A stretch of 64,000 bases of DNA from Bacillota bacterium (GTDB lineage: Bacteria; Bacillota; Sulfobacillia; JACIYH01), in contig JBFLXJ010000023.1 in NCBI GenBank assembly GCA_040757085.1, positions 128,457 to 192,456 of the forward strand. Reading direction: 5' to 3'. The position numbers and the translations under genes were made by a program. The first letter of the stretch is position 1, and each line of letters begins with the position of its first letter. Below are positions 908 through 49,507 of the stretch, in pieces. Under the pieces are notes generated by a model that saw nothing but the letters and a program-made list of their open reading frames with translations, did not search any database and had not been told where the DNA came from.

Positions 908-1453
908 ATGCGAGTGCTGACCCGGAGATTCGGTATCCTGAAGGTTCCGGAGGAACTGGTGTGGCGGTGGCCGGTGCCACTGCCCGGGTTCCCCCGTTCG
1001 CGGGAGTTTGTGCTCATCGATGACGAAAAGGCGCGTCCCTTCCTGTGGCTGCAATCCCTTAACGAACCCGAGGTAGCCTTCGTCATCGTCGATGCCGGGC
1101 TGGTGGCTCCCGGCTACGATCCCTGTCTGCCCGAAGGGGAGATCACCTGCCTGCAGCTCTCTCCGGGTGCCAGGCCCATTCTGTACGCCATCGTCACCGT
1201 GCCGGAGGACCCCCGGCAGTCCTGGGTTAACCTGCGCGCGCCGCTTGCCCTCAATGCGTATGCACGGCTGGGGCGGCAGGTAGTACTTTCGGACGAAGCT
1301 TACTCATTCCGCCACCCCCTTTGGGAGGCAGTGGACCGGTTGAGCGAGTCATCTCGCCAGGGACGGTACGAGAGCCAGGGAGGGCGATTGTTGTGCTGGT
1401 CCTTGCCCGCAAGCTCCACCAGAGCATCCTTATCGGCGATACGGTCCGCATAA
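908..1453 (+). CDS. fliW: Flagellar assembly factor FliW with a C-terminal extension overlapping csrA
   Basis: FliW binds CsrA and relieves its repression of flagellin translation; free flagellin in turn sequesters FliW. The 181-residue product starts at ATG 908 and shows the FliW pattern: an early gly/pro turn (LPGFP), then the core (FLWLQSLNEPEVAFVIVD near residues 45-63), a central acidic loop and a conserved NLRAPLALN segment near residues 116-124. FliW proteins are usually about 130-155 residues. This one runs some 30 residues further, with a polar tail read in a different frame over the first 61 bases of csrA. The tail may be real, or the stop may have been lost by a small indel. Order flgL-fliW-csrA supports the assignment. 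Confidence 0.93.
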   Translation: MRVLTRRFGILKVPEELVWRWPVPLPGFPRSREFVLIDDEKARPFLWLQSLNEPEVAFVIVDAGLVAPGYDPCLPEGEITCLQLSPGARPILYAIVTVPEDPRQSWVNLRAPLALNAYARLGRQVVLSDEAYSFRHPLWEAVDRLSESSRQGRYESQGGRLLCWSLPASSTRASLSAIRSA

Positions 1454-1662
1454 CCGTACTGGAAGTACGCGACGGCCAGGTGCGCCTGGGCATCGATGCC
1501 CCCCGCGACGTTTCCATCCTGCGTGAAGAGGTAGTGCACGCCGCCGCTGCCAGCAACCGGGAGGCATGCGCCGGAGGAGCGCTTACCGGGGAAGCCGTGG
1601 AAGGGGTGGCAGCCCTGTTGCTGCAGTCCTTGTCCGGGGAAGAAAGGGGCGGGGGGCAATGA
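1393..1662 (+). CDS. csrA: Carbon storage regulator CsrA
   Basis: Dimeric RNA-binding translational repressor that binds GGA motifs in leader RNAs. The start is taken as GTG 1393, giving MLVLARKLHQSILIGD, the canonical first strand; a GGGAGG ribosome site lies about 10 bases upstream inside fliW. A further upstream start would add residues with no family counterpart. The VRLGIDAPRDVSILREEV segment, with the conserved GI-AP and R-E residues of strands 4-5 and the helix, is intact. At 89 residues it is longer than the usual 60-75, with an Ala/Gly-rich C-terminal tail. It overlaps fliW by 61 bases and the next gene by ATGA. The expected target is the hag leader at about 8531-8562. Confidence 0.95.
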   Translation: MLVLARKLHQSILIGDTVRITVLEVRDGQVRLGIDAPRDVSILREEVVHAAAASNREACAGGALTGEAVEGVAALLLQSLSGEERGGGQ

Positions 1663-2681
1663 GGGTGCTCGTCACCGGGGGTGCTGGCTTCATCGGCAGC
1701 AACTTCATCCGGTACTGCCTCGCCCACCACTCCGACTGGGAACTGGTCAACTTCGACAAACTGACATACGCCGGGAACCTGGAGAACCTGGCCGGCATCG
1801 ACGAATCCCGATATTCGTTCGTGCGCGGAGATATAGCGGATCCCGCGGCGGTGGAAGGGCTTTTTTCGCAGCCGTTCGACGTAGTGGTGAACTTTGCCGC
1901 CGAGTCTCACGTGGACCGCAGCATCCTGGATTCCAGCCCGTTCTTGCGCACCAATGTGCTGGGGACACAGGTGCTGCTTGAGGCTGCCAGGCGGCACGGG
2001 GTGGCCCTGTTCATCCAGGTGTCAACGGACGAGGTTTACGGGTCGCTCGGGGAGGAGGATCCCCCTTTCAGCGAGGGCAACCCGCTGGCACCCAACAGTC
2101 CGTATGCCGCCAGCAAGGCGTCTGCCGACCTGCTGGCGCGGGCCTGGTGGAGGACTTACCGCGTACCGGTAGTGGTAACCCGCTGCTGCAATAATTTTGG
2201 ACCCTACCAGTTTCCGGAGAAGCTCATCCCCCTGGTCATCACCAACGCTCTCCAGGATCTCGCGGTGCCGGTTTACGGGGATGGCCGGAACATCCGGGAC
2301 TGGATACACGTCGAGGACCATTGCCGGGCTCTCGATCGCATCATCCAGGCGGGCAAGCCCGGGACTATTTACAACATCGGCGCGGGATGTGAGGTGCGGA
2401 ACATCGACCTCGTTCGGACCATCCTTTCCTTGCTGGATAAACCCGAATCTCTGATACAGTATGTGCCCGACCGGCCGGGCCACGACTGCCGCTATGCGGT
2501 TGATTCCTCCCGGATCAGAAGGGAGTTGGGATGGACTCCGACCCGTTCCCTCCAGGAGTCCCTGCCCGACGTGATTGCCTGGTATGTGAGGAACGAGGGC
2601 TGGTGGAGGCGGGTCAAGAGCGGGGCATACCGCGATTATTACGAAGCCGTTTACGTGCGGCATTGGGGGGAAGCCACGTGA
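1659..2681 (+). CDS. rfbB: dTDP-glucose 4,6-dehydratase RmlB
   Basis: Second step of dTDP-L-rhamnose synthesis: converts dTDP-glucose to dTDP-4-keto-6-deoxyglucose using bound NAD. The ATG at 1659 overlaps the csrA stop (ATGA) and gives a 340-residue protein, the usual RmlB length. Visible features are the Rossmann motif [11 protein letters not shown] at residues 6-16, a signature [13 protein letters not shown], the STDEVYG segment holding the catalytic Thr-Asp-Glu, and YAASK with the catalytic Tyr and Lys. First of four translationally linked rml genes inserted between csrA and hag, so the sugar is probably destined for the flagellum, although a cell-wall or polysaccharide role cannot be excluded. 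Confidence 0.95.
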
Positions 2682-3745
2682 AGGGGCTGGTTTTGGCGGG
2701 AGGGAAGGGCACCCGGCTGCGGCCACTCACCTACACCATGCCCAAGCAGTTGGTCCCCGTGGCGAACAAGCCCATTCTCCATTTTGTAATCTCGCAGGTG
2801 GCCGAGGCCGGTGTGCGAGAAGTGGGCGTTATCGTGTCACCGGAAACCGGGGATCTGGTGAGGGCGTCCCTTGGCGATGGGTCACGTTGGGGGGTGCGGG
2901 TCAGTTACATAGTCCAGGACCGCCCGGCCGGGCTGGCTCACGCCGTCAGGACGGCTGCTCCCTTTCTGGGCTCGGACCCCTTCTTGATGTTCCTGGGGGA
3001 TAACCTCATCGAGGGCGGCGTCAGCGCGCTGGTGCGCGAATTCCGGGATACGACAGCGGACGCGGCCCTGTTGTTGAAGCAGGTCACGGATCCGCGCGCC
3101 TTCGGCGTGGCAGTGGTCGATGAGGGCGGTCGGGTGGTCCGCCTGGTGGAGAAGCCCCGCGACCCCCCGAGTGAGCTTGCCCTGGTCGGGGTCTACGTGT
3201 TTTCCTCCCTCATCCACGAGGCCATCTCCCGGATCGGGCCCTCATGGCGGGGGGAGCTTGAGATTACCGATGCCATCCAGGAGCTGATCAACCTGGGGGG
3301 AAAGGTCCGGGCCCGGCAGCTGGAGGGCTGGTGGCTGGATACGGGCAAGAAGGATGATCTCCTGGAGGCCAACCGCATCGTGCTCGACCATTACGCGTCG
3401 AGGCACATCGGGGGTGACGTGGACGGGGAAAGCCAGGTGGTGGGGCGGGTCGAGGTGGGAGAGGGTGCCCGCATCCGCCGCAGCGTGGTGCGGGGACCGG
3501 CGGTGATTGGGCCCGAGGCTGAGCTAGAGGACTGTTTTGTGGGGCCGTTTACCGCCATCGGCGGCCGCAGTAAACTCCGAGGGGTTTCTATCGAGCACTC
3601 GGTCGTCCTGGAATGCTGTGAACTCAGGGACGTGGGCCCCATCGAAGACAGCCTGATCGGGAGAAACGCCCGTGTGGTGCGCGCCGACAACCGGCACCCT
3701 GCGCTGCGCCTTTTCCTTGGGGACGAGGCACAGGTGGCGGTATGA
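2678..3745 (+). CDS. rfbA: Glucose-1-phosphate thymidylyltransferase RmlA, long form with left-handed helix tail
   Basis: Makes dTDP-glucose from dTTP and glucose-1-phosphate, the first step of the rhamnose pathway. The start is GTG 2678, overlapping the rfbB stop (GTGA), and yields [19 protein letters not shown], the nucleotide-binding loop. Further motifs are [13 protein letters not shown] and [10 protein letters not shown] (metal-binding Asp). The 355-residue length, with a C-terminal hexapeptide-like repeat region (about residues 245-345, e.g. [18 protein letters not shown]), is that of the long RmlA subfamily of archaea, actinobacteria and some Bacillota, not the 290-residue enterobacterial form. 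Next gene begins after 64 bases. Confidence 0.93.
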
Positions 3746-3809
3746 GGCGTGCGTCCGTCCTGGTCAGGCGCCGATGGGGACAGACGCGTGCGGGACGGAG
3801 GGATCGGGC

Positions 3810-4265
3810 GTGATAGCAGGGGTAAAGGTGAAGCCACTCGTCCGTCATGCGGACGACCGGGGCTTCTTCCAGGAAGTGGTCAGGGCTGATGAGGGGATCC
3901 TGCCCCGCTTCGGCCAGCTTTCCATGGCAAAGACCTACCCCGGGGTGATCAAGGCTTTTCACTATCACGAAAGGCAGGACGACCTGTGGTTCTTTCCCGT
4001 GGGTAATGCCCAGGTGGTGCTCCACGACCTCAGGGAGGGCTCCCCGACCTACCGCCAAACCGATGTGTTCTACATGGGCGAGGACAATCCCATGGCACTC
4101 TTCATACCCGCTGGCGTGGCCCACGGTTACAGGACTCTGGGGGAGAAGCCGGCGATCCTGCTCTATGTAACGACCGAGTCGTATGACCGGGAGTGCCCCG
4201 ACGAAAAGCGGATCCCCTACGACGATCCCGGTATCGGCTTCGACTGGAGCACCAGGATGAGGTAG
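3810..4265 (+). CDS. rfbC: dTDP-4-dehydrorhamnose 3,5-epimerase-family protein RmlC
   Basis: Cupin-fold epimerase, third step of dTDP-L-rhamnose synthesis. The GTG at 3810 is chosen because GGAGG lies 8 bases upstream; it gives 151 residues beginning MIAGVKVKPLVRHADDRGFF. ATG 3774 is in frame but has no ribosome site. Conserved RmlC elements are IKAFHYHERQDDLWF (the catalytic His region), VVLHDLREGSPTY, FIPAGVAHGYRTL and a final YDDPGIGFDWS. It is shorter than classical RmlC (about 180 residues) and belongs to the compact variant group, so a different keto-sugar epimerase is possible, but the complete rmlB/A/D neighbours favour rhamnose. Confidence 0.88.
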   Translation: MIAGVKVKPLVRHADDRGFFQEVVRADEGILPRFGQLSMAKTYPGVIKAFHYHERQDDLWFFPVGNAQVVLHDLREGSPTYRQTDVFYMGEDNPMALFIPAGVAHGYRTLGEKPAILLYVTTESYDRECPDEKRIPYDDPGIGFDWSTRMR

Positions 4266-4271
4266 GCGCCC

Positions 4272-5138
4272 ATGGGGAAAGTGATGGTGACCGGTTCGCG
4301 AGGGATGTTGGGTCGGGCGGTAGTAGCAGCATTTTCTGCCGCGGGCTTTGATGTCGTGGCGCTGGATCACGGGGCGCTTGATGTGACCGATCTCAGCGCG
4401 GTCCGGAAGGTAACGACCGAATTGAGACCGGGGTTGGTGGTGAACTGTGCCGCTTACACCGACGTGGACAGGGCCGAATCAGAGTCCGCCCTCGCCATGT
4501 CGGTAAATGCCCTCGGGGCAAGGAACGTGGCTCTGGCGTGCCTCGACGCCGGTGCCCAGCTGGTGCACATCAGCACCGACTACGTGTTCTCGGGTAATAA
4601 GGGCGAACCGTACAGCATCTGGGATCCCTGCGATCCCATTAACACATATGGCAGGAGCAAGGCCTGGGGTGAGTACTACGTGCGCTCCCTACTGCCCCGT
4701 TCCTACATTATCCGCACCAGCTGGCTCTTTGGGCCGGGCGGCGACAACTTCGTGGCCACCATGTTGAGGCTCGCACGCGACGGGGAGACGATCCAGGTGG
4801 TGGAGGACGAGCAGGGTTGTCCCACGTTCACCGAAGACCTGGCGGGTGCCATGGTGGATTTGGTCCGCACCCGGGCTTTCGGCACTTACCATATCACCAA
4901 CTCCGGATCCGTCACCCGCTATGGGTTAGCCTCCCTGGCCGTCGCGTTGGCAGGGCTGCCCGTTCGGATTCAGCCCGTGGCCAGCGGTGAATTTCCCCGG
5001 CGGGCGGCTCGGCCGCGCAACTCCGCCCTTGACGCATTCCCGTTGCGGGAGACCATTGGTCACTTGCTTCCCGACTGGCAAGATGCCGTTCGCCGGTACG
5101 TGATTGGGCTCACTTCAACAGGAGTCGCCCAGAGTTAG
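4272..5138 (+). CDS. rfbD: dTDP-4-dehydrorhamnose reductase RmlD
   Basis: NAD(P)H-dependent final step producing dTDP-L-rhamnose. Begins at ATG 4272, six bases after the rfbC stop; 288 residues, normal for RmlD. Motifs: Rossmann MVTGSRGMLGRAV at residues 5-17, NCAAYTDVDRAE, HISTDYVFSG, and the catalytic YGRSK near residue 129. The substrate-binding segment IIRTSWLFG is also present. The last 24 bases overlap tail-to-tail with the glycosyltransferase on the other strand, so no terminator separates them. Confidence 0.95.
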   Translation: MGKVMVTGSRGMLGRAVVAAFSAAGFDVVALDHGALDVTDLSAVRKVTTELRPGLVVNCAAYTDVDRAESESALAMSVNALGARNVALACLDAGAQLVHISTDYVFSGNKGEPYSIWDPCDPINTYGRSKAWGEYYVRSLLPRSYIIRTSWLFGPGGDNFVATMLRLARDGETIQVVEDEQGCPTFTEDLAGAMVDLVRTRAFGTYHITNSGSVTRYGLASLAVALAGLPVRIQPVASGEFPRRAARPRNSALDAFPLRETIGHLLPDWQDAVRRYVIGLTSTGVAQS

Positions 5139-6416
5139 GGCTTTGTACCCCCGGCCTTTGACTGTCTCGAGCATACGTTGTTCCCACCGATCGGATAGGA
5201 ACAGATGCGCGACAAGGCTGGCGAGGTCAGGTTTTACCAGGCAGGTTCCCCATGCCCCGATGGCGCCGATGTTTGGAGCCAGTGTGAGGCTGGCCAAGAG
5301 TTCGAGGATCAGGTCATCGGGTACGCGGGTTGGCCTGCTCCAGAAGAGGACCGCATCGCACCCAGCCAGGGCTGCGGAGATGGCTCTGGGAAGATCTGCA
5401 CTTGGAACAGTTCCTGGTTGTGTGCAACCTTGGTTACAGAGACCTTTGTCTTTACTCGGCGGCGAAGCAGTGTCTGACCGGAGGTCTTCGTGTGCGATGA
5501 TAACTTTCGTTGGCCATGGTCGTTCACGGGAACAATGCTGCGTTGGCGGGGAGTTCGCAGACAGCACAATAAGAAGGCCGCCGATAGGTCCTAGTGACTT
5601 GGTTACGGTTCCCTCCCGTTGTTCGTAACGGACGATGAGGCCGTCCTCAAGGTAGATGCGCGTATCATCCGGTGATGTCCGTCCAGACCACCTGGCGTTC
5701 AGGATGTCGAGGTTTTCCCTGAATTTGCGGAACCGTTCCGGTCCGCTGACGGATTCGTGGTGAATGAGCTGGGCCCAGGGCGTGTAGACCACCCGGTAGC
5801 CCTTTTCCCGAAGACGCAGGCAGAGGTCCACATCCTCGTACCCGTTATAGAACTGCTCGTCGAATCCTCCGACCTGAAAGAACACATTGCGTGGGATAAG
5901 GAGGCATGCTCCGGTCACCGCCTGCAGCTCGCGTGGTTTATTCACGAGGGGGTGGAGGGTGTCGAAGCGATAGTAAAGATGGTAAGGGGCCAATCCGCCG
6001 CTCGTCGCGTCGAAACCTATCACGACTCCGGCATGCTGCACTGTATTGTCGGGGAACAGGAGTTTGCAGCCTACGGCCCCGAGCTGGTGTTCCGTGGTTG
6101 CCACTCTCAGCAGGTTTTCGAGCCAGCCTGGTAATGGCTCCGTATCGTTGTTGAGGAATAACAGAAACTCCCCTTCCGCGACCTGAGCACCAGTGTTACA
6201 AGCCCGTGCAAAACCCTGGTTTTGGGGGTTAAGGATAACCTTTACGTCGCCTTCTAAATCCTTAAGCAGTGTGCGCGTTGCATCGGTTGAACCATTGTCC
6301 ACGATAATTACCTCGTAGAGATGGTCGGGCGTATTGGTGGCAAGGGCTTCAAGGCAGCGCCTGGTGTAACCGACCTTGTTATATGTGGGAATGATGATTG
6401 ATACTTCGTACTTCAA
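5115..6416 (-). CDS. Family 2 glycosyltransferase with a degenerate second GT2-like half
   Basis: Probable flagellin or polysaccharide glycosyltransferase of 433 residues starting at TTG 6416 (G-rich ribosome site upstream on the minus strand). Residues 1-260 form a complete GT2 domain: SIIIPTYNKVGYTRRCLEAL, IVDNGSTDAT, NQGFARACNTGA, the metal-binding LFLNNDTEPLPGWLENL, and GGFDEQFYNGYEDVDLCLRL with the acidic catalytic residue, as in rhamnosyl- and N-acetylglucosaminyltransferases. Residues about 280-433 are unlike the usual tail. They contain ALAGCDAVLFWSRPTRVPDD followed by a LELLASLTLAPNIGAIGAWG stretch, which lines up with the middle of a GT2 domain but lacks the Asp-X-Asp. It is the only gene of this island on the minus strand, and its codon use appears less GC-biased than neighbours, hinting at transfer. 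Confidence 0.85.
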   Translation of the reverse strand: MKYEVSIIIPTYNKVGYTRRCLEALATNTPDHLYEVIIVDNGSTDATRTLLKDLEGDVKVILNPQNQGFARACNTGAQVAEGEFLLFLNNDTEPLPGWLENLLRVATTEHQLGAVGCKLLFPDNTVQHAGVVIGFDATSGGLAPYHLYYRFDTLHPLVNKPRELQAVTGACLLIPRNVFFQVGGFDEQFYNGYEDVDLCLRLREKGYRVVYTPWAQLIHHESVSGPERFRKFRENLDILNARWSGRTSPDDTRIYLEDGLIVRYEQREGTVTKSLGPIGGLLIVLSANSPPTQHCSRERPWPTKVIIAHEDLRSDTASPPSKDKGLCNQGCTQPGTVPSADLPRAISAALAGCDAVLFWSRPTRVPDDLILELLASLTLAPNIGAIGAWGTCLVKPDLASLVAHLFLSDRWEQRMLETVKGRGYKALTLGDSC

Positions 6417-6474
6417 CCAGGTCCCCCCGGACTATATCGTTGCTGGTGCTACAGGTGGACAGAGGTGATGCATC

Positions 6475-8433
6475 TTGGACGCTGCGTATTACGGTAACAG
6501 CAGGCCTGAGGTTCAGAGGTTGGTCCCGCCCCATGCAAGGCGCATACTTGACGTGGGTTGCGGGTGGGGCCGCCTGGGAGCTGAGCTCAAGGCATCCGAA
6601 CCGGGTCGGGAGGTAACGGGAGTCGAACTGGTGCCGCAGGTGGCCGAAGTAGCACGGCAGCTTCTTGATCGAGTGCTTGTCGGGGACATAGAAGAGGTAG
6701 TGGACCAATTGCCACGCCGGTATTTCGATTGCGTCATATTGGCCGACATCCTCGAACACCTGCGGGACCCGTGGACTACCTTGGCGAGGCTGAGCGCGGC
6801 TCTGCAGCCAGGGGCGACGTTCGTGGCGAGCGTTCCCAACGTGGCTCACTGGTCTGTAATCCGGGGACTAATCGAGGGAGAATGGCGTTACCAGGACGAG
6901 GGGCTGCTGGATCGCACCCACCTGCGTTTTTTCACCAAGAGCAGTATCAGAGATATGTTCGAGCAGGCGGGATGGAGGGTGGTAGAGATTGAGGCACTGT
7001 CAAAACACGATGGGGGTAGCCTGCCCCTCGGGGTGATAGAAGAGCTGAACCGTGTCGGGGTGAGGGCTCAGCGGTTGCTCAAGGAAGCCTACGACTATCA
7101 GTACCTGGTGCGGGGCTGCTACCCGGGCGGGGTCTCGTGCGTGCTCACACCCCAGCTGGTGAGCATTGTGCTCCCTTGCTGGAACGGTGCGGAGTACACC
7201 CAGGGTTGCGTGGAGAGCATATTTGCCAACACTGACTGGCCCTTTGAACTTATCGTGGTGGATAACGGATCGACGGATGGTACCGTCACTTTTCTGGATA
7301 GCCTGGCCTCCAAATACCCCAATGTGCGGCTTGTCCTAAACAAGGAAAACCTGGGTTTTGGGTTGGCCTGCAACCAGGGCATGGCTCTTGCTCGCGGCCA
7401 GTACGTGGTTCTCCTAAACAACGATACCGTCCTGACGGAGGGCTGGCTGGCCCGCCTGATATCTCATGCAGAGGCGGATTTGCAGGTTGGGATAGTAGCC
7501 CCTCGGTCTAACTGGGTGGCGGGGCCACAGTTAGTGGGTCGGGTGTCATACGGCCCTGAGCTTGCTGCACTTCCAGACTTCGCGCGAAATTGGCAGAAAG
7601 CTCACTTTGGCCGCCGGCGGTATGTAGACAGGGTAGTAGGGCTGTGCATGCTCATCAAAAGGGAGGTTCTTGAGAAGGTGGGGGGATTCGACCCTCGCTT
7701 CGGAGTAGGTAATTTCGAGGATGATGATTACTGTCTGCGGGCCCGTATGGCCGGCTACCGCATTTGCATCGCGGACGACGTGTTCATTCATCATTTTGGG
7801 CATCGGACTTTCCTAGGCAATAGGGTGGACTACGACGCCCTGATGCAGCGGAACTGGGAACGCTTCTGTCGGAAATGGGGTATTCGTGCGGACGGACACG
7901 GTGCTTATTCTGCACACGACATCGCGGCTCGGCCGCGGCCAGAGCTCCTATACATTCCGCTCGATCTCGGGCAAGCATTGCACCCCAGTGGTGGGCCCCT
8001 GTCGTTGTGGCCGGAGGACAGGTTTTCTTTTTTGGCGTTTCCCGATTGGTCGGATCCCGCGTCGCGGTGGCCCGTCATCCTGCGGAGCTTCTGCCGTGCT
8101 TTCGCCCCCGGAGATAAGGTCTGTCTGGTGTTACGTGTCGACCCGGCCGAGGTGCCGTCTGTGAAGGCAATAGTGCAGGCCGTTGTGAAAGAAATCCATG
8201 GCGCCGGGCTGGACCCCGACGAGATTCCAGATGTTGTTATCTGTGACGACAACCTGGACTGGGAAGAGTTGAAGCGCATGTTCTGCGGTGCGCGCGCGTA
8301 TGTTCCCTGTGGCGAGCTTGAGCAAGGGTTGCACAGTTATCAGGCCCAGCTGTGTGGACTCTCGGAACCATCCGGCGTTTCGCCGGAAGCGTTCCGGAGG
8401 ATTGTCCCACCGGGCTACCTGCTCACTTCTTAA
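6475..8433 (+). CDS. Three-part protein: SAM methyltransferase, GT2 glycosyltransferase and C-terminal GT-B-like half
   Basis: 652 residues starting at TTG 6475; an in-frame TGA lies at 6466 and AGGTGA is the ribosome site, so no longer start exists. Residues 1-185 are a class I methyltransferase (ILDVGCGWGRLGAEL, then DCVILADILEHLRDP and FVASVPNVAHWSV). Residues 225-480 are a full GT2 domain (SIVLPCWNGAEYTQGCVESI, VDNGSTDGT, NLGFGLACNQGM, VLLNNDTVLTEGWL, GGFDPRFGVGNFEDDDYCLR). The last 150 residues resemble the nucleotide-binding half of a GT-B enzyme (FSFLAFPDWSD, then DNLDWEELKRMF and ARAYVPCGELEQGL). The stop is 138 bases before hag. Role inferred: adding and possibly O-methylating a glycan on flagellin; substrate unknown. 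Confidence 0.82.
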   Translation: MDAAYYGNSRPEVQRLVPPHARRILDVGCGWGRLGAELKASEPGREVTGVELVPQVAEVARQLLDRVLVGDIEEVVDQLPRRYFDCVILADILEHLRDPWTTLARLSAALQPGATFVASVPNVAHWSVIRGLIEGEWRYQDEGLLDRTHLRFFTKSSIRDMFEQAGWRVVEIEALSKHDGGSLPLGVIEELNRVGVRAQRLLKEAYDYQYLVRGCYPGGVSCVLTPQLVSIVLPCWNGAEYTQGCVESIFANTDWPFELIVVDNGSTDGTVTFLDSLASKYPNVRLVLNKENLGFGLACNQGMALARGQYVVLLNNDTVLTEGWLARLISHAEADLQVGIVAPRSNWVAGPQLVGRVSYGPELAALPDFARNWQKAHFGRRRYVDRVVGLCMLIKREVLEKVGGFDPRFGVGNFEDDDYCLRARMAGYRICIADDVFIHHFGHRTFLGNRVDYDALMQRNWERFCRKWGIRADGHGAYSAHDIAARPRPELLYIPLDLGQALHPSGGPLSLWPEDRFSFLAFPDWSDPASRWPVILRSFCRAFAPGDKVCLVLRVDPAEVPSVKAIVQAVVKEIHGAGLDPDEIPDVVICDDNLDWEELKRMFCGARAYVPCGELEQGLHSYQAQLCGLSEPSGVSPEAFRRIVPPGYLLTS

Positions 8434-8457
8434 CGGCGGTCCGTTTTGCCTCGATGA
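8431..8457 (+). promoter_or_regulatory. Candidate sigma-D (sigma-28) promoter for hag
   Basis: TAAC at 8431, a 15-base gap and CTCGATGA at 8450-8457 resemble the sigma-28 pattern TAAA-N15-GCCGATAA (three of four and five of eight bases). A transcript from here would have a leader of about 108 bases holding the hairpin at 8484 and the CsrA-like sites. The match is partial; this is a candidate only. Confidence 0.35.
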
Positions 8458-8483
8458 TTAACGTGGGGTGCGCACTCAGCGGT

Positions 8484-8513
8484 GCTCCGACCCAAGCGGC
8501 CGCAGGTCGGAGC
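8484..8513 (+). promoter_or_regulatory. Perfect 9-bp stem-loop in the hag leader
   Basis: GCTCCGACC (8484-8492) and GGTCGGAGC (8505-8513) are exact reverse complements around a 12-base loop that itself contains GCGGCCGC. It lies between the methyltransferase-GT gene and hag, upstream of the CsrA-like sites. No T-run follows, so it is more likely a leader or mRNA-stability structure than a terminator. Confidence 0.6.
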
Positions 8514-8530
8514 GAGGAGCGGGCGCGGAG

Positions 8531-8562
8531 ACAGGGAGGTCCCGCAGGGAACTTCAAGGAGG
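8531..8562 (+). promoter_or_regulatory. Two candidate CsrA-binding sites in the hag leader, the second over the SD
   Basis: ACAGGGAGGT (8531-8540), flanked by a short GAC/GTC stem that presents GGA in the loop, matches the CsrA consensus ACARGGAUGU at 9 of 10 positions. CAAGGAGG (8555-8562) places a second GGA within the ribosome site of hag. Two sites with the downstream one masking the SD is the arrangement known for Bacillus subtilis hag. Both csrA and its antagonist fliW are encoded 7 kb upstream. Confidence 0.6.
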
Positions 8563-8571
8563 AAGCGCCGA

Positions 8572-9396
8572 ATGGGGCTCAGGATTAACAGTAACATCGA
8601 GGCCCTCAACGCCCACCGGCACCTCAGCGCCACAGCTGCTCGGCTGGCCAAATCGATGGAGCGCCTGTCATCGGGCATGCGCATCAACCGGGCTTCCGAC
8701 GACGCAGCGGGCCTGGCCATAGCGGAGAAGATCATGAGCCAGGTGAACGGACTTAACCAGGCGAGCAGGAACGCGCAGGATGCCATTTCCCTGGTGCAGA
8801 CGGCGGAGGGTGCGCTCCAAGAGACCCACAGCATCTTGCAGCGCATGCGGGAGCTGGCGGTTCAGGCTGCTAACGATACCCTGACGGAGCAGGACAGGCA
8901 GGCCATTCAGCAGGAGATTGACAACCTGCTGGCTGAGATCGATCGTATTGCCACTACCACAGAGTTCAACACGAAGAAGCTGCTGAACGGTGACGTGGCC
9001 ACGACGCCGCTTAGCTTCCAGGTGGGAGCCAACGCAAATCAAGTGGTCACACTCACCATTGCCACCGCAAACAGGACGTCTATGACATTGGATGGCCTGT
9101 CGGTCAGCTCTGCTACGTCGGCAAGCCAGGCCATAGTGAGCCTGGACGAGGCGATCAAGTATGTCTCCAACGTACGGGCCAACCTGGGTGCCATGCAGAA
9201 CAGGCTCGAGCACACCATCGCCAACTTGGGCGTAGCCTCGGAGAACCTGCAGGCTGCCCATTCACGCGTTCGCGACGTGGACATGGCCGCCGAAATGATG
9301 CAGTACACCAAGTTGCAGATCCTTCAGCAGGCAGGTACTGCCATGCTGGCTCAGGCAAACCTGGCTCCCCAGGCCGTCCTCAAGCTCCTTGGTTAG
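8572..9396 (+). CDS. hag: Flagellin (Hag/FliC)
   Basis: Structural subunit of the flagellar filament. Start ATG 8572 with AAGGAGG nine bases upstream; 274 residues, the compact size of many Bacillota flagellins, consisting of D0/D1 helices and a short variable centre. The N-terminus has MGLRINSNIEALNAHRHL and LSSGMRINRASDDAAGLAIA. The C-terminus has RVRDVDMAAEMMQYTKLQIL and ends QANLAPQAVLKLLG. The middle (about residues 135-185) is rich in Thr and Ser, offering O-glycosylation acceptors for the adjacent glycosyltransferases. Expression is probably controlled by FliW/CsrA through the leader. A strong hairpin follows at 9443. Confidence 0.97.
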   Translation: MGLRINSNIEALNAHRHLSATAARLAKSMERLSSGMRINRASDDAAGLAIAEKIMSQVNGLNQASRNAQDAISLVQTAEGALQETHSILQRMRELAVQAANDTLTEQDRQAIQQEIDNLLAEIDRIATTTEFNTKKLLNGDVATTPLSFQVGANANQVVTLTIATANRTSMTLDGLSVSSATSASQAIVSLDEAIKYVSNVRANLGAMQNRLEHTIANLGVASENLQAAHSRVRDVDMAAEMMQYTKLQILQQAGTAMLAQANLAPQAVLKLLG

Positions 9397-9493: not shown

Positions 9494-12040
9494 GTGAGGA
9501 TAGCCTACCTGATTGAGAAGGAGTCGATGACGGAAGTTGTGTCACGGACCGTGGTAGGGCAGTGCGCCCTGCTTGCCGGGCGCGGGCACGAGATCTGGAT
9601 TCTGGCGCCGGGGGACCGCCCGGACTGGGTGCCCGCGGGTGTACAGTTCCATAAGGTGGGTCGCTGGGTTTTTGCCCTGGCGTTCGATCTCCTGGGTCAG
9701 TGCGATGCCGTCGTTGCTACGCATCATTCGCAGGCGGCCGTGGCAACAGATGTGGGGACGGCTGCGCCCTTCCTTATCCTACCGGAGGAGGCCTTGTTCG
9801 GCAAAAGGCTGGCTCCGGAAGTCGAATTGATGGAGACTCTCAGAGGTTTGCCGGTGGCGGTGCTGACTACGTCACTTGCTGTACGGGAATGGGTTAAGCA
9901 AGTTGGCGCGAGGTACCCGGTTTACGTTTGCGACGAGTTCCCGGTGTCCGGGGTTGAGGGCGGCGGGGGATGGGACGGGGCCAAAATTGAAGACGCGTTG
10001 GTGCAAGGGATCAGATGGCACCAAGAACGTGTGCCGGCCTTCTCGTCCTTAGGTCTGGCCATGATAGTGCGCGACGAGCAGGAGAACCTGCGACGGTGTC
10101 TGGAGAGTGTGCGACCCATCGTGGACCAGATCGTGGTGGTCGACACTGGTTCGTGCGACAACACCGTTGCTGTAGCTGAGGAGCTGGGAGCCGAAGTGGT
10201 GAGGCATGACTGGCGCCAGGACTTTGCGGCAGCCCGTAATGCTTCATTGGCCCGCCTGTCAACCGATTGGGTGATTGTGCTGGACGCCGACGAGTGCTTG
10301 ACGGCATCCTCTTACCCGGTGATCCGCAGAGCAATTCTGAACCCATCTGTCGATGGGTTCCTGCTGGACATAATCAACGTAACCGGAGAAATTCTGGTTT
10401 CGGGGGCGCTCGTTCATAGCTCGGTGAGGCTCTTCCGCCGCCGGTCAGGGTTTCAGTACGAGGGCTGCTTGCACGAGCAGGTAGCCCCCTCCATCCTCAG
10501 GAACGGTGGGCGCATCAGGCCCTTGCCAGGTGCATCCATACTGCACTACGGCTATCTGGGGGCCATGGTGAGTGCTCGCGACAAGAAGCAGCGCAACCTC
10601 GCTATCGTCCGCCGGCAGGTGGAGGAGGACCCGCGGAACGCTTTTGCTCACTTTAACTTGGGGATGGAATGCCTGCGCCAGGGTGACAGGCCAAGGGCGA
10701 TAAAGGCCTTTCGGCGATCGTTCCGACTGTTACCTGGCCTTGACGCATCCTATGCTCCTGCCTTGCTCAAGAACCTGGCTGCCTGCTTGTTGGAGGAAGA
10801 AAAGTATCAGGACGCTTCTGCACTTCTGGAACTCGCGGAAGAGGTTTACCCCGACTACGTAGACCTGGCTCTCCTGCGGGGTATCGCTTTGAATCGGATG
10901 AAGCGGTACGAGGAAGCACTGGTGGTACTGGAAAAATGCGTCGAGAAGGGCGAAGCCCCCGCCTTGTACATGACGCAGGTCGGTGCCGGCAGCTTCCTGG
11001 CCCGCATGGCCATGGTAGAAGCATACTTGGGAATGGGCCGGTTTGACGAAGCCGCCGAGAACTACCGGGTGGCGAGCAGGGAAATGGTTGAGCGATTGGG
11101 AGGTACCATCGCGGAAGGTCGGCCAAGATCTTCGGGCAGGGCTGCGTCTTGCTGGATAGCGGCTGAGCGACTGGTGGGAGAGGGCGACCTATCAGGAGCC
11201 GTTGCAGCTTACCGGGAACTGATGGATCCCGAGGTGAGGCAAGAGCTGTTGCCAACTCAGTTGGCCGCGCTGTGGCAACGCAAGATCATCCTTGAGCTGG
11301 TCGCGGGGGATCCCTCCGTGGCGCGGCAAGATGTACGACTGTTGCGTGGTGTCAACCCGAGAGGTGCGGACGCTTGTGCGGCACTGCTCAACCTGTTGCT
11401 CGAGGAGGTAGACCCGCAGAGACGGGAAGTTCTGGCTACGGCGGGTGGGGTCGGCGAAGCCGAACTTGACCAGCCAGGATTTGTTGCCAACCCTGAGCTC
11501 TGTTGGGAGGACGTGGTCGTCCCGCTGACCACACTCCTGGACACGGGACTGAGTACCTGGTTTGCTAAGGCGTGCAGGTGGCTGGCCTCGGGATCCATGC
11601 AGGAGGCAAAACTGAATCTGGAACTGGGCAAGTTGTTTTTTCAGCGGGGCTGTGACGAGGCCGCTGCTCAGTACCTCTTAGCGAGTGCCAGGGCTGGGGT
11701 GGCTGACGCCGCAGGCTTCTGGCAGCTAGGCGAGTTAAGTTCCCGGCACGCACTGCCCGCCGACGCGAGGGTCTTCTACCGCCAAGCTATAAGGCAGGCG
11801 CCGAAAGTCCCGCGCTACTGGATATCACTTGCTCTTTCGTACCATGATGCGGGCAGAGACCGCGCGGGTTTACGCGTCCTGAGTCTGGCCCGGCACCATA
11901 CCGGGGGCGAAATTATCCAGGCTACGCGGATGGCTTTGGAGATCAGCAGCCGGCTGACCTCGCGCGCAGAGCCCCCGGGGGGCCAGCAGGGCTTGGGGAG
12001 GCCGCAAGGAGGTGGTATGGGTGAGCGTACCAGTGTTTAA
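9494..12040 (+). CDS. Glycosyltransferase with GT-B N-half, GT2 core and TPR-rich C-terminus
   Basis: 848 residues from GTG 9494. Residues 1-165 look like the acceptor half of a GT-B (GT4-like) enzyme (MRIAYLIEKE, GHEIWILAPGD, QCDAVVATHHSQAAVA). Residues 183-400 form a GT2 domain of the SunS/beta-glucosyltransferase type: LGLAMIVRDEQENLRRCLES, VVVDTGSCDNTV, DWRQDFAAARNASL, and the metal-binding VIVLDADECL. From about residue 385 onward tetratricopeptide-like helices dominate (AFAHFNLGMECLRQGDRPRA, later LRGIALNRMKRYEEALVVLE). It lies between hag and fliD and overlaps fliD by 20 bases. Inferred role: glycosylation of flagellin or other filament proteins, with the TPR part holding the protein acceptor. 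SunS-type enzymes also act on peptide Cys/Ser, so the linkage is open. Confidence 0.82.
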   Translation: MRIAYLIEKESMTEVVSRTVVGQCALLAGRGHEIWILAPGDRPDWVPAGVQFHKVGRWVFALAFDLLGQCDAVVATHHSQAAVATDVGTAAPFLILPEEALFGKRLAPEVELMETLRGLPVAVLTTSLAVREWVKQVGARYPVYVCDEFPVSGVEGGGGWDGAKIEDALVQGIRWHQERVPAFSSLGLAMIVRDEQENLRRCLESVRPIVDQIVVVDTGSCDNTVAVAEELGAEVVRHDWRQDFAAARNASLARLSTDWVIVLDADECLTASSYPVIRRAILNPSVDGFLLDIINVTGEILVSGALVHSSVRLFRRRSGFQYEGCLHEQVAPSILRNGGRIRPLPGASILHYGYLGAMVSARDKKQRNLAIVRRQVEEDPRNAFAHFNLGMECLRQGDRPRAIKAFRRSFRLLPGLDASYAPALLKNLAACLLEEEKYQDASALLELAEEVYPDYVDLALLRGIALNRMKRYEEALVVLEKCVEKGEAPALYMTQVGAGSFLARMAMVEAYLGMGRFDEAAENYRVASREMVERLGGTIAEGRPRSSGRAASCWIAAERLVGEGDLSGAVAAYRELMDPEVRQELLPTQLAALWQRKIILELVAGDPSVARQDVRLLRGVNPRGADACAALLNLLLEEVDPQRREVLATAGGVGEAELDQPGFVANPELCWEDVVVPLTTLLDTGLSTWFAKACRWLASGSMQEAKLNLELGKLFFQRGCDEAAAQYLLASARAGVADAAGFWQLGELSSRHALPADARVFYRQAIRQAPKVPRYWISLALSYHDAGRDRAGLRVLSLARHHTGGEIIQATRMALEISSRLTSRAEPPGGQQGLGRPQGGGMGERTSV

Positions 12041-48495: not shown

Positions 48496-49507
48496 GCCCC
48501 TTCCCTCCTTGCTCCCGCGCCCGCAGGCGCTTGGCCAGCCGGGCGACCGCCCACTGCCAGCTCATCTCCCAGCCACCGAGCAATCCTCTGGGCCGCAAGA
48601 GCATCATTAGAACCAGTAGCAGGGAATACATCACCATCCAGGCCGAGCGCACCCACTGGGAGGCGGCCGCATAGCCGAGTGAGTGCAGCAGGGTACCCGC
48701 GTTGCGGAACACCTCAGGAAGCGCGGTGATGGCGCACGCTCCCAGCAGCGAACCGGTGAGGCTTCCCAGCCCGCCCAGGATGACCATGGTCACCGATTCC
48801 ACGGTCTTCAGGTAATTGAAGACGTCCGGGTGCAGGTACATGGTGAAGTGCCCGGTGAGCGCGCCGCCCACGCCAGCGAAGAAAGAGGAGATGGTGAATG
48901 CCGCCAGCTTGTAGTACGTGGTGTTTATGCCCAGGCACTGTGCCGCTATCTCGTCCTCCTTGACGGCCCGGCAGCACCTGCCGTGTCGGGAATAGACGAA
49001 GTTGCCCACCAGCCACACGGTGACCACGAGCGCCAGCAGCGCCACCGCCAGGTCGGTGCGCAGGGGGACGCCGACAATGCCCAGGCCCCCACCCGTCAGG
49101 TTGGGGGTGTTGTTGATGACCGCCAGGATGATGTAGTGGAACCCGAGCGTCACCACGGCCAGGTAGTCACCCACCAGTCTGAGGCAGGGAAATCCCACCA
49201 GGAAGCCGCAGGCGGCCGCTGCCGCTCCTCCGGTCAGCAGGGCGGGCAGGAAGGACCAGTGGGCCTTCATCATCAGCAGGGCGGAAGTATAGGCACCCAC
49301 CGCCATGAAGCCGGCGTGACCCAGGCTGAACTGCCCGGTGAATCCAGAGACCAGGTTCCAGCTCACCGCCAGGATGGAGTTGATGGCCATGAAGGTGAGC
49401 AGGGATACGAAGTAGCTGGGGAGCCACGATTGAGCAAGATGGCCCAGGATGTGGGCGCCGGCTGCAAACAGAAGCAGCGATCCGAGGCGCATGCGGAAGT
49501 GGCTCAT
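48479..49507 (-). CDS. livM: Branched-chain amino acid-type ABC transporter permease LivM
   Basis: 342 residues with many membrane segments (LLLFAAGAHILGHLAQSWLP, FMAINSILAVSWNLVSGFTG, FSLGHAGFMAVGAYTSALLM). The GHAGF-A and NTTYYKLAAFTISSFFAGVG segments and the GGLGSLTGSLLGACAI loop are LivM signatures. Followed three bases downstream on the same strand's order by livH upstream (49511). Confidence 0.95.
   Translation of the reverse strand: MSHFRMRLGSLLLFAAGAHILGHLAQSWLPSYFVSLLTFMAINSILAVSWNLVSGFTGQFSLGHAGFMAVGAYTSALLMMKAHWSFLPALLTGGAAAAACGFLVGFPCLRLVGDYLAVVTLGFHYIILAVINNTPNLTGGGLGIVGVPLRTDLAVALLALVVTVWLVGNFVYSRHGRCCRAVKEDEIAAQCLGINTTYYKLAAFTISSFFAGVGGALTGHFTMYLHPDVFNYLKTVESVTMVILGGLGSLTGSLLGACAITALPEVFRNAGTLLHSLGYAAASQWVRSAWMVMYSLLLVLMMLLRPRGLLGGWEMSWQWAVARLAKRLRAREQGGKGLGSSP

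Follow-up and report, generated by a model that had tools for sequence, protein, structure and literature searches.

Gene cluster and the question posed by the hag leader

The flagellin gene hag of the window (the whole 64 kb stretch of DNA analysed here) lies in one cluster with fliW and csrA, and the question is whether its leader is an operator through which CsrA controls flagellin translation. An earlier note, made from the sequence, had claimed that the gap upstream of hag combines a partial sigma-28 promoter, a perfect 9-bp stem-loop and two GGA motifs in the manner of Bacillus subtilis hag. The genes concerned are:

908..1453, + strand: fliW, CsrA antagonist (PF02623; PDB 5dmb_A match)
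1393..1662, + strand: csrA, GTG start (PF02599; PDB matches; TIGR00202 and PRK01712 above cut-off)
8572..9396, + strand: hag/fliC (Pfam Flagellin_N and _C)

The Pfam matches bear out the placing of fliW (908-1453) and csrA (1393-1662) in the same cluster as hag, so that both CsrA and FliW are encoded in the genome. The cluster runs flgL-like gene, fliW, csrA, sugar-nucleotide and glycosyltransferase genes (the former named by eye), hag. In the own genome hag is the sole full-length flagellin match, the second match being the FlgL-like gene at the window start. CsrA aligns ungapped to E. coli-type and Geobacillus-type CsrA (PDB matches), and FliW aligns to 5dmb_A, 5dmb being a Geobacillus-type FliW/CsrA entry. 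The RNA-contact residues of CsrA, L4, R6 and R44, are all kept, with K at position 7 and I at position 42. Also kept is the Asn aligned with N55 of B. subtilis CsrA, a FliW contact according to the accessible part of PMC6529632. Sugar-nucleotide and glycosyltransferase genes occupy 1566-8433, from csrA to hag, and 9494-12040, directly after hag, and likely form a flagellin glycosylation island.

Structure of the hag leader

The gap of 138 nt between the upstream ORF (stop ends at 8433) and the hag ATG at 8572 is as the earlier note gave it, and the two GGA motifs are indeed there, as ACAGGGAGGT at 8531-8540 and CAAGGAGG at 8555-8562, the second covering the Shine-Dalgarno (SD). The leader contains the following features:

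8430..8457, + strand: sigma-28-like promoter (8/12 consensus positions; similar sites in two congeners)
8484..8513, + strand: GC-rich hairpin, 9 bp with a 12-nt loop (folded leader; shuffles)
8525..8545, + strand: SL1, upstream CsrA-type hairpin (MFE of 8519-8590; covariation)
8552..8565, + strand: SL2, CsrA-type hairpin over the SD (MFE of 8458-8590 and 8519-8590; covariation)

The SL1 loop, AGGGAG at 8533-8538 (GGA 8535-8537), is closed by GAC/GTC and then, past a bulged A8529, by GCGG/CCGC. SL2 consists of CTTC, the loop AAGGAG at 8556-8561 and GAAG, and its GGA (8558-8560) is itself part of the SD. The two GGAs are spaced 23 nt, each in its own six-base ANGGAN loop, a detail absent from the earlier note. 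CsrA prefers ANGGAN hexaloops, a preference that both loops fit; the leader thus has the two GGA hairpins 5' of a flagellin gene, one over the SD, that are expected of a CsrA/FliW flagellin leader. The CsrA consensus quoted in the accessible text of PMC8668096 is RUACARGGAUGU. A third ANGGAN at 8546 was rejected as a CsrA hairpin, being without a stem.

Hexaloop pairs 14-60 nt apart arose in 9 of 20,000 dinucleotide shuffles of the hag leader (0.00045). When the 64 kb were scanned for two ANGGAN hexaloops at a distance of 14-60 nt, each on a stem of ≥3 bp, three such pairs came up on the + strand and none on the - strand, against a mean of 0.3 in 30 one-strand Markov simulations. The three are the hag leader, the csrA RBS (1359/1377) and a pair within an ORF (58027/58047); the last was rejected as a CsrA site, lying inside the ORF and being absent from the fold.

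Folding of the leader, one of the checks that the earlier note had proposed, gave a divided answer. The MFE structure of 8519-8590 contains both SL1 and SL2, that of 8458-8590 SL2 only and that of 8519-8575 neither, so the folds depend on the segment, and in energy the single leader sequence did not significantly outdo its shuffles (z -1.36, -0.40 and -1.82). Confidence in the structure comes from covariation, not from energy. Searches of Rfam 15 returned only a snoRNA match far under the cut-off in window 8300-8700 (E up to 5) and no family match in 20 loci.

Promoter and 9-bp stem

A sigma-28-like site is present where the earlier note placed its partial promoter, and as a promoter it is only moderately supported. 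Its -35 element (TTAA/TAAC, 8430-8434) shares bases with the stop codon of the ORF before it, and with TTAA at 8430-8433 and a spacer of 16 the -10 is CTCGATGA at 8450-8457. Since 13% of 60 Markov simulations reach its score of 8/12 against the consensus (p 0.13), the site is weak taken alone. The congener leaders L003 and L004 score 9/12 (p 0.07) and 10/12 (0/60 simulations), their sites lying almost equally far from the start, and the mean best score over all leaders was 8.70 against 7.54 simulated. Judged from these motifs, transcription of hag from a sigma-28 promoter at 8430-8457 is plausible.

The perfect 9-bp stem pairs 8484-8492 with 8505-8513, is also found in the folded leader and exceeds chance, with no stem as long in 100 dinucleotide shuffles of the region. 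It is 5 and 6 bp in the two congeners and thus unconserved there, and as its loop also lacks GGA it was rejected as a CsrA hairpin. An extra upstream hairpin reached p 0.05 in 6/39 FliW+ and 0/15 FliW- leaders, so we regard it as optional rather than a conserved part. Our guess is that the 9-bp hairpin might protect the 5' end of an abundant mRNA.

Covariation among class relatives

Of 61 genomes, the own one and those of its genus and class, 55 had a match to a flagellin query, FlgL-only matches included. Among 39 leaders from 37 FliW+ genomes, ANGGAN occurs at the SD in 36 and additionally 15-35 nt upstream in 24, and the bases flanking the loops pair more than column composition predicts. 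We aligned 24 class leaders by sequence only; these were picked for ANGGAN at both places, not for pairing, and because of that choice the conservation of the loops within the alignment is by selection. Paired cells made up 87.5% of this alignment against 60.2 when shuffled, and the covariation score was 0.653 against 0.178, a value reached by 0/500 shuffles and approached to at most 0.193 by slid-alignment controls. Double changes occurred in 8 of the 9 pairs across both stems (shuffles: mean 6.0, with 8 reached in 6/500) and in 53 cells (18.5 in shuffles, 53 reached by 0/500). RNAalifold, unprompted, gave the same two stems. The structure is therefore kept through compensatory changes among the 24 leaders. 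Within the genus one SL1 pair switches from A-U to G-C (L004), and SL2 is only 2 bp in the two congeners. By eye, in five leaders without a strict SL1 hexaloop (L120, L122, L015, L174 and L175) the GGA sits instead in a five-base loop closed by a stem.

Co-occurrence with FliW

Among class genomes, at least one strict hexaloop was present in the flagellin leaders of 37/37 with FliW and 1/15 without. The same comparison gave 30/37 against 0/15 for strict SL2, 25/37 against 1/15 for strict SL1 and, for both strict hexaloops, only 18/37 against 0/15. With looser loops, both sites were found in 26/37 FliW+ and 0/15 FliW- genomes, while any site was present in 5/15 FliW- genomes. Genomes are related, so Fisher p-values for these tables are overstated; family f5 includes both states.

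An earlier count split by csrA had given any hexaloop in 35/37 against 2/16. For the FliW count, the G041 leader L173 was dropped (FlgL by its start, not flagellin) and the start of G059 was corrected; a second flagellin copy was included for G003 and G037 but not for G014 and G021 (L119, L130). G023, a 70% complete genome in which csrA was not found, was counted as FliW+ on the strength of a fragment of FliW where a contig ends. G051 has csrA, no FliW match and no hexaloop.

Covariance model search across the phylum

A covariance model, R1, was trained on the 24 class leaders, the window's own included. In the own genome the hag leader scored 42.8 bits (E 9.1e-8, as a training row) and the next match had E 0.02. 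R1 matched 109 of 199 phylum genomes at E ≤ 0.01, comprising 101/136 with csrA over the cut-off and 8/63 without. The best match per genome was read in 52 of the 108 other genomes and preceded flagellin in 50: all 29 of one set (27 recognised by pattern, the other 2 by eye), all 20 of another and one of three more, namely L237 (G087) but not L229 (G061) or L231 (G194). Neither G061 nor G194 has a csrA match above the cut-off; in other genomes with csrA below it, for example G083, G153 and G170, the best match does precede flagellin. Among 17 secondary matches, pattern places 5 before flagellin and reading by eye adds a sixth. The 51 leaders found within the named loci L034-L110 divided into 19 with both hexaloops, 12 with one and 20 with none; those with two include Bacillota and Desulfobacterota-type records (taxonomy per titles), and flagellins of the gammaproteobacterium L071 are without a hexaloop.

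Several matches lay elsewhere. In three genomes of one family (L220, L221 and L224), a flagellin-type dual hexaloop, about 100-150 bases from the match-bearing end, precedes a shared non-flagellin ORF (MKI..KSESLKMWVG) that has no Pfam or NCBIfam match over the cut-off and is a possible further CsrA target. A dual hexaloop also precedes a DUF6033 protein (L223:425-1006). The second-best match in the window is at 48943-48987 on the - strand (21.8 bits, E 0.0005), with UCAAGGAGGA as an SD-like site.

Proposed mechanism and alternative explanations

Structure, covariation and the co-occurrence of fliW and csrA are the basis for CsrA control of hag. On this basis the B. subtilis-type architecture put forward in the earlier note, two GGA sites with one over the SD, is a strongly supported prediction, from which the 9-bp stem, at 5 and 6 bp in the congeners, has to be removed. 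We put at roughly 90% the probability that the hag leader serves CsrA as a translational operator, with a dimer on SL1 and SL2 blocking the ribosome and FliW relieving the block. By this mechanism the dimer would grip the two ANGGAN hexaloops across their 23 nt and the bound protein would deny the ribosome access to the hag SD; once flagellin is exported, FliW would become free and take CsrA off, so that flagellin synthesis would follow export. Binding, repression and partner switching at this leader are predicted here by analogy with Bacillus and Campylobacter.

SL2 could instead be a plain, weak SD-sequestering hairpin that acts without a protein, as an RNA thermometer or intrinsic attenuator. 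It does appear, SD included, in the MFE structures of both 8458-8590 and 8519-8590, but the SD lies mostly in the loop and not in the stem, and the element tracks FliW/CsrA, which would be unexpected of a thermometer; we consider such a hairpin very improbable. Chance, with GGAGG as nothing more than a normal SD in a GC-rich leader that folds readily, would account for fold energies no better than those of shuffles, yet it is already refuted by covariation and sits badly with the shuffle frequency of 0.00045 and the FliW association, and we give it almost no credence.

The operator would also work differently if hag were transcribed only from a promoter 3' of SL1, leaving SL1 idle, or if transcripts reading through from the glycosyltransferase gene before it gave hag a longer leader. 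The modest sigma-28 match (8/12, p 0.13) leaves some room for this, but the congeners have better sites at nearly the same distance and SL1 itself covaries, and we judge it unlikely.

Comparison with known systems

In B. subtilis hag the CsrA sites are named BS1 and BS2. The papers named below are cited from the accessible parts of their text. For the B. subtilis leader, PMC7652899 and PMC11898703 cite Yakhnin 2007 on a pair of sites for CsrA; the window's leader resembles it in having two CsrA-type sites, one over the SD, with fliW and csrA present, and differs in its stems and in the GC-rich hairpin upstream. The two hexaloops of the hag leader recur in named Bacillota loci. In the Campylobacter jejuni flaA leader, CsrA protects the GGAs of both SL1 and SL2 (PMC4894983); likenesses are two ANGGA-loop stem-loops, the second over the RBS, compensatory changes and FliW as antagonist, whereas flaA has a 45-nt leader, a third GGA in codon 2 and fliW apart from csrA. 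Clostridioides difficile fliC likewise has two predicted hairpin sites, CBS1 and CBS2, at -45..-34 and -20..-9, the second over the SD, but there the SD site alone was needed (PMC11898703). Dual-site CsrA control of flagellin is thus already known in B. subtilis and C. jejuni and predicted in C. difficile, and the hag leader is a fresh, well-supported example of a known flagellin switch.

A second element in the leader of csrA

The csrA start carries a hexaloop pair of its own:

1356..1367, + strand: upstream hexaloop of the csrA RBS, GCC / AGGGAC / GGT (pair scan; R1)
1374..1385, + strand: hexaloop over the csrA SD, GCC / AGGGAG / GGC (pair scan; folding; R1; congeners)

The two GGAs, separated by 18 nt, fall within the 3' end of fliW, and a pair is found in the same position in both congeners; the hexaloop at 1356-1367 is absent from the MFE of 1335-1410. 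R1, trained on flagellin leaders only, ranked the csrA RBS third in the window (1351-1395, 14.9 bits, E 0.03, filters off). A CsrA-type site thus lies over the SD of csrA itself, as in autoregulation of the E. coli type. In all three species of the genus fliW overlaps csrA by 61 nt, so that ribosomes on fliW cross the csrA RBS.

Applied to 30 class csrA loci (90 kb), R1 gave 26 matches at E ≤ 1. Flagellin starts account for 14 of them (10 assigned by pattern and 4 from coordinates); another 7 end ≤5 nt from the start codon of csrA, 3 are close to csrA without being in register, and 2 lie elsewhere. A further 30 csrA loci, from the phylum, were taken by best E-value and not at random (an SD hexaloop occurs in only 4/37 lower-ranked loci); their 31 matches comprised 14 at flagellin, 8 at csrA in register, 1 near csrA and 8 unplaced. 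ANGGAN stands at the SD in 54 of 103 csrA leaders (8/111 being without a start found), and 32 of those 54 have a stem of ≥ 3 bp, compared with 18/118 SD-placed ANGGA[GA] elsewhere in long loci. Stem pairs 1-3 are formed in 41, 36 and 41 of 53 against 30.3, 28.5 and 23.5 when shuffled; pairing at pairs 4 and 5 was not above shuffles.

The element is related to the spacing of csrA behind fliW (loci L131-L171 and L258-L327, 3 more leaders being without an upstream frame end). Spacing was called tight where the frame before csrA stops at -25..+30 nt relative to its start, and this was seen in 3/30 csrA genes with an SD hexaloop and 61/70 without; in this comparison the open frame before csrA (≥45 codons) was equated with fliW irrespective of profile, and a stop codon inside the SD region in itself restricts which stems can form. 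Within the class the figures are 0/13 and 23/25, and the contrast persists when just the leaders with ANGGAN at the SD are compared, at 3/30 and 19/22. In the named loci a hexaloop was found at 0/17 csrA-like starts, none of the Bacillus-like csrA genes having one over the SD, and the upstream stop lies within -4..+29 in 16; the 17th start (L033) does not resemble csrA. The long overlap and hexaloop RBS of the window thus contrast with the tight spacing and lack of a hexaloop in Bacillus-like loci.

In E. coli, csrA represses itself (Yakhnin 2011, summarised in PMC7652899), and for csrA alone the likeness holds, with CsrA sites in its own leader, one over the SD; unlike the window, where the sites lie within fliW, Gammaproteobacteria are without FliW and use sRNA antagonists. 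No report of CsrA self-repression in a FliW-type bacterium was present in the literature searched, which is weak evidence of absence, most subscription papers being beyond reach. The SD hexaloop of csrA is, from its sequence, a candidate autoregulatory mode. We hold it an even chance that FliW-type bacteria balance CsrA to FliW in one of two ways, either by coupling csrA translationally to fliW or, where coupling is not tight, by self-repression through a CsrA hexaloop on the csrA RBS; the window's genus, with its dual hexaloop in the end of fliW, would be of the second type.

Implications

Backed by covariation, the hag leader adds another Bacillota class to the range of the CsrA/FliW flagellin switch, and the R1 model finds flagellin leaders phylum-wide. 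More interesting than the hag leader is the csrA-start element, which hardly ever coincides with tight spacing between fliW and csrA. In B. subtilis it proved impossible to make CsrA over-accumulate, and another layer of control was predicted (PMC6529632, in its accessible part); a csrA leader that binds its own product would be a directly testable form of such additional control, though in other lineages.
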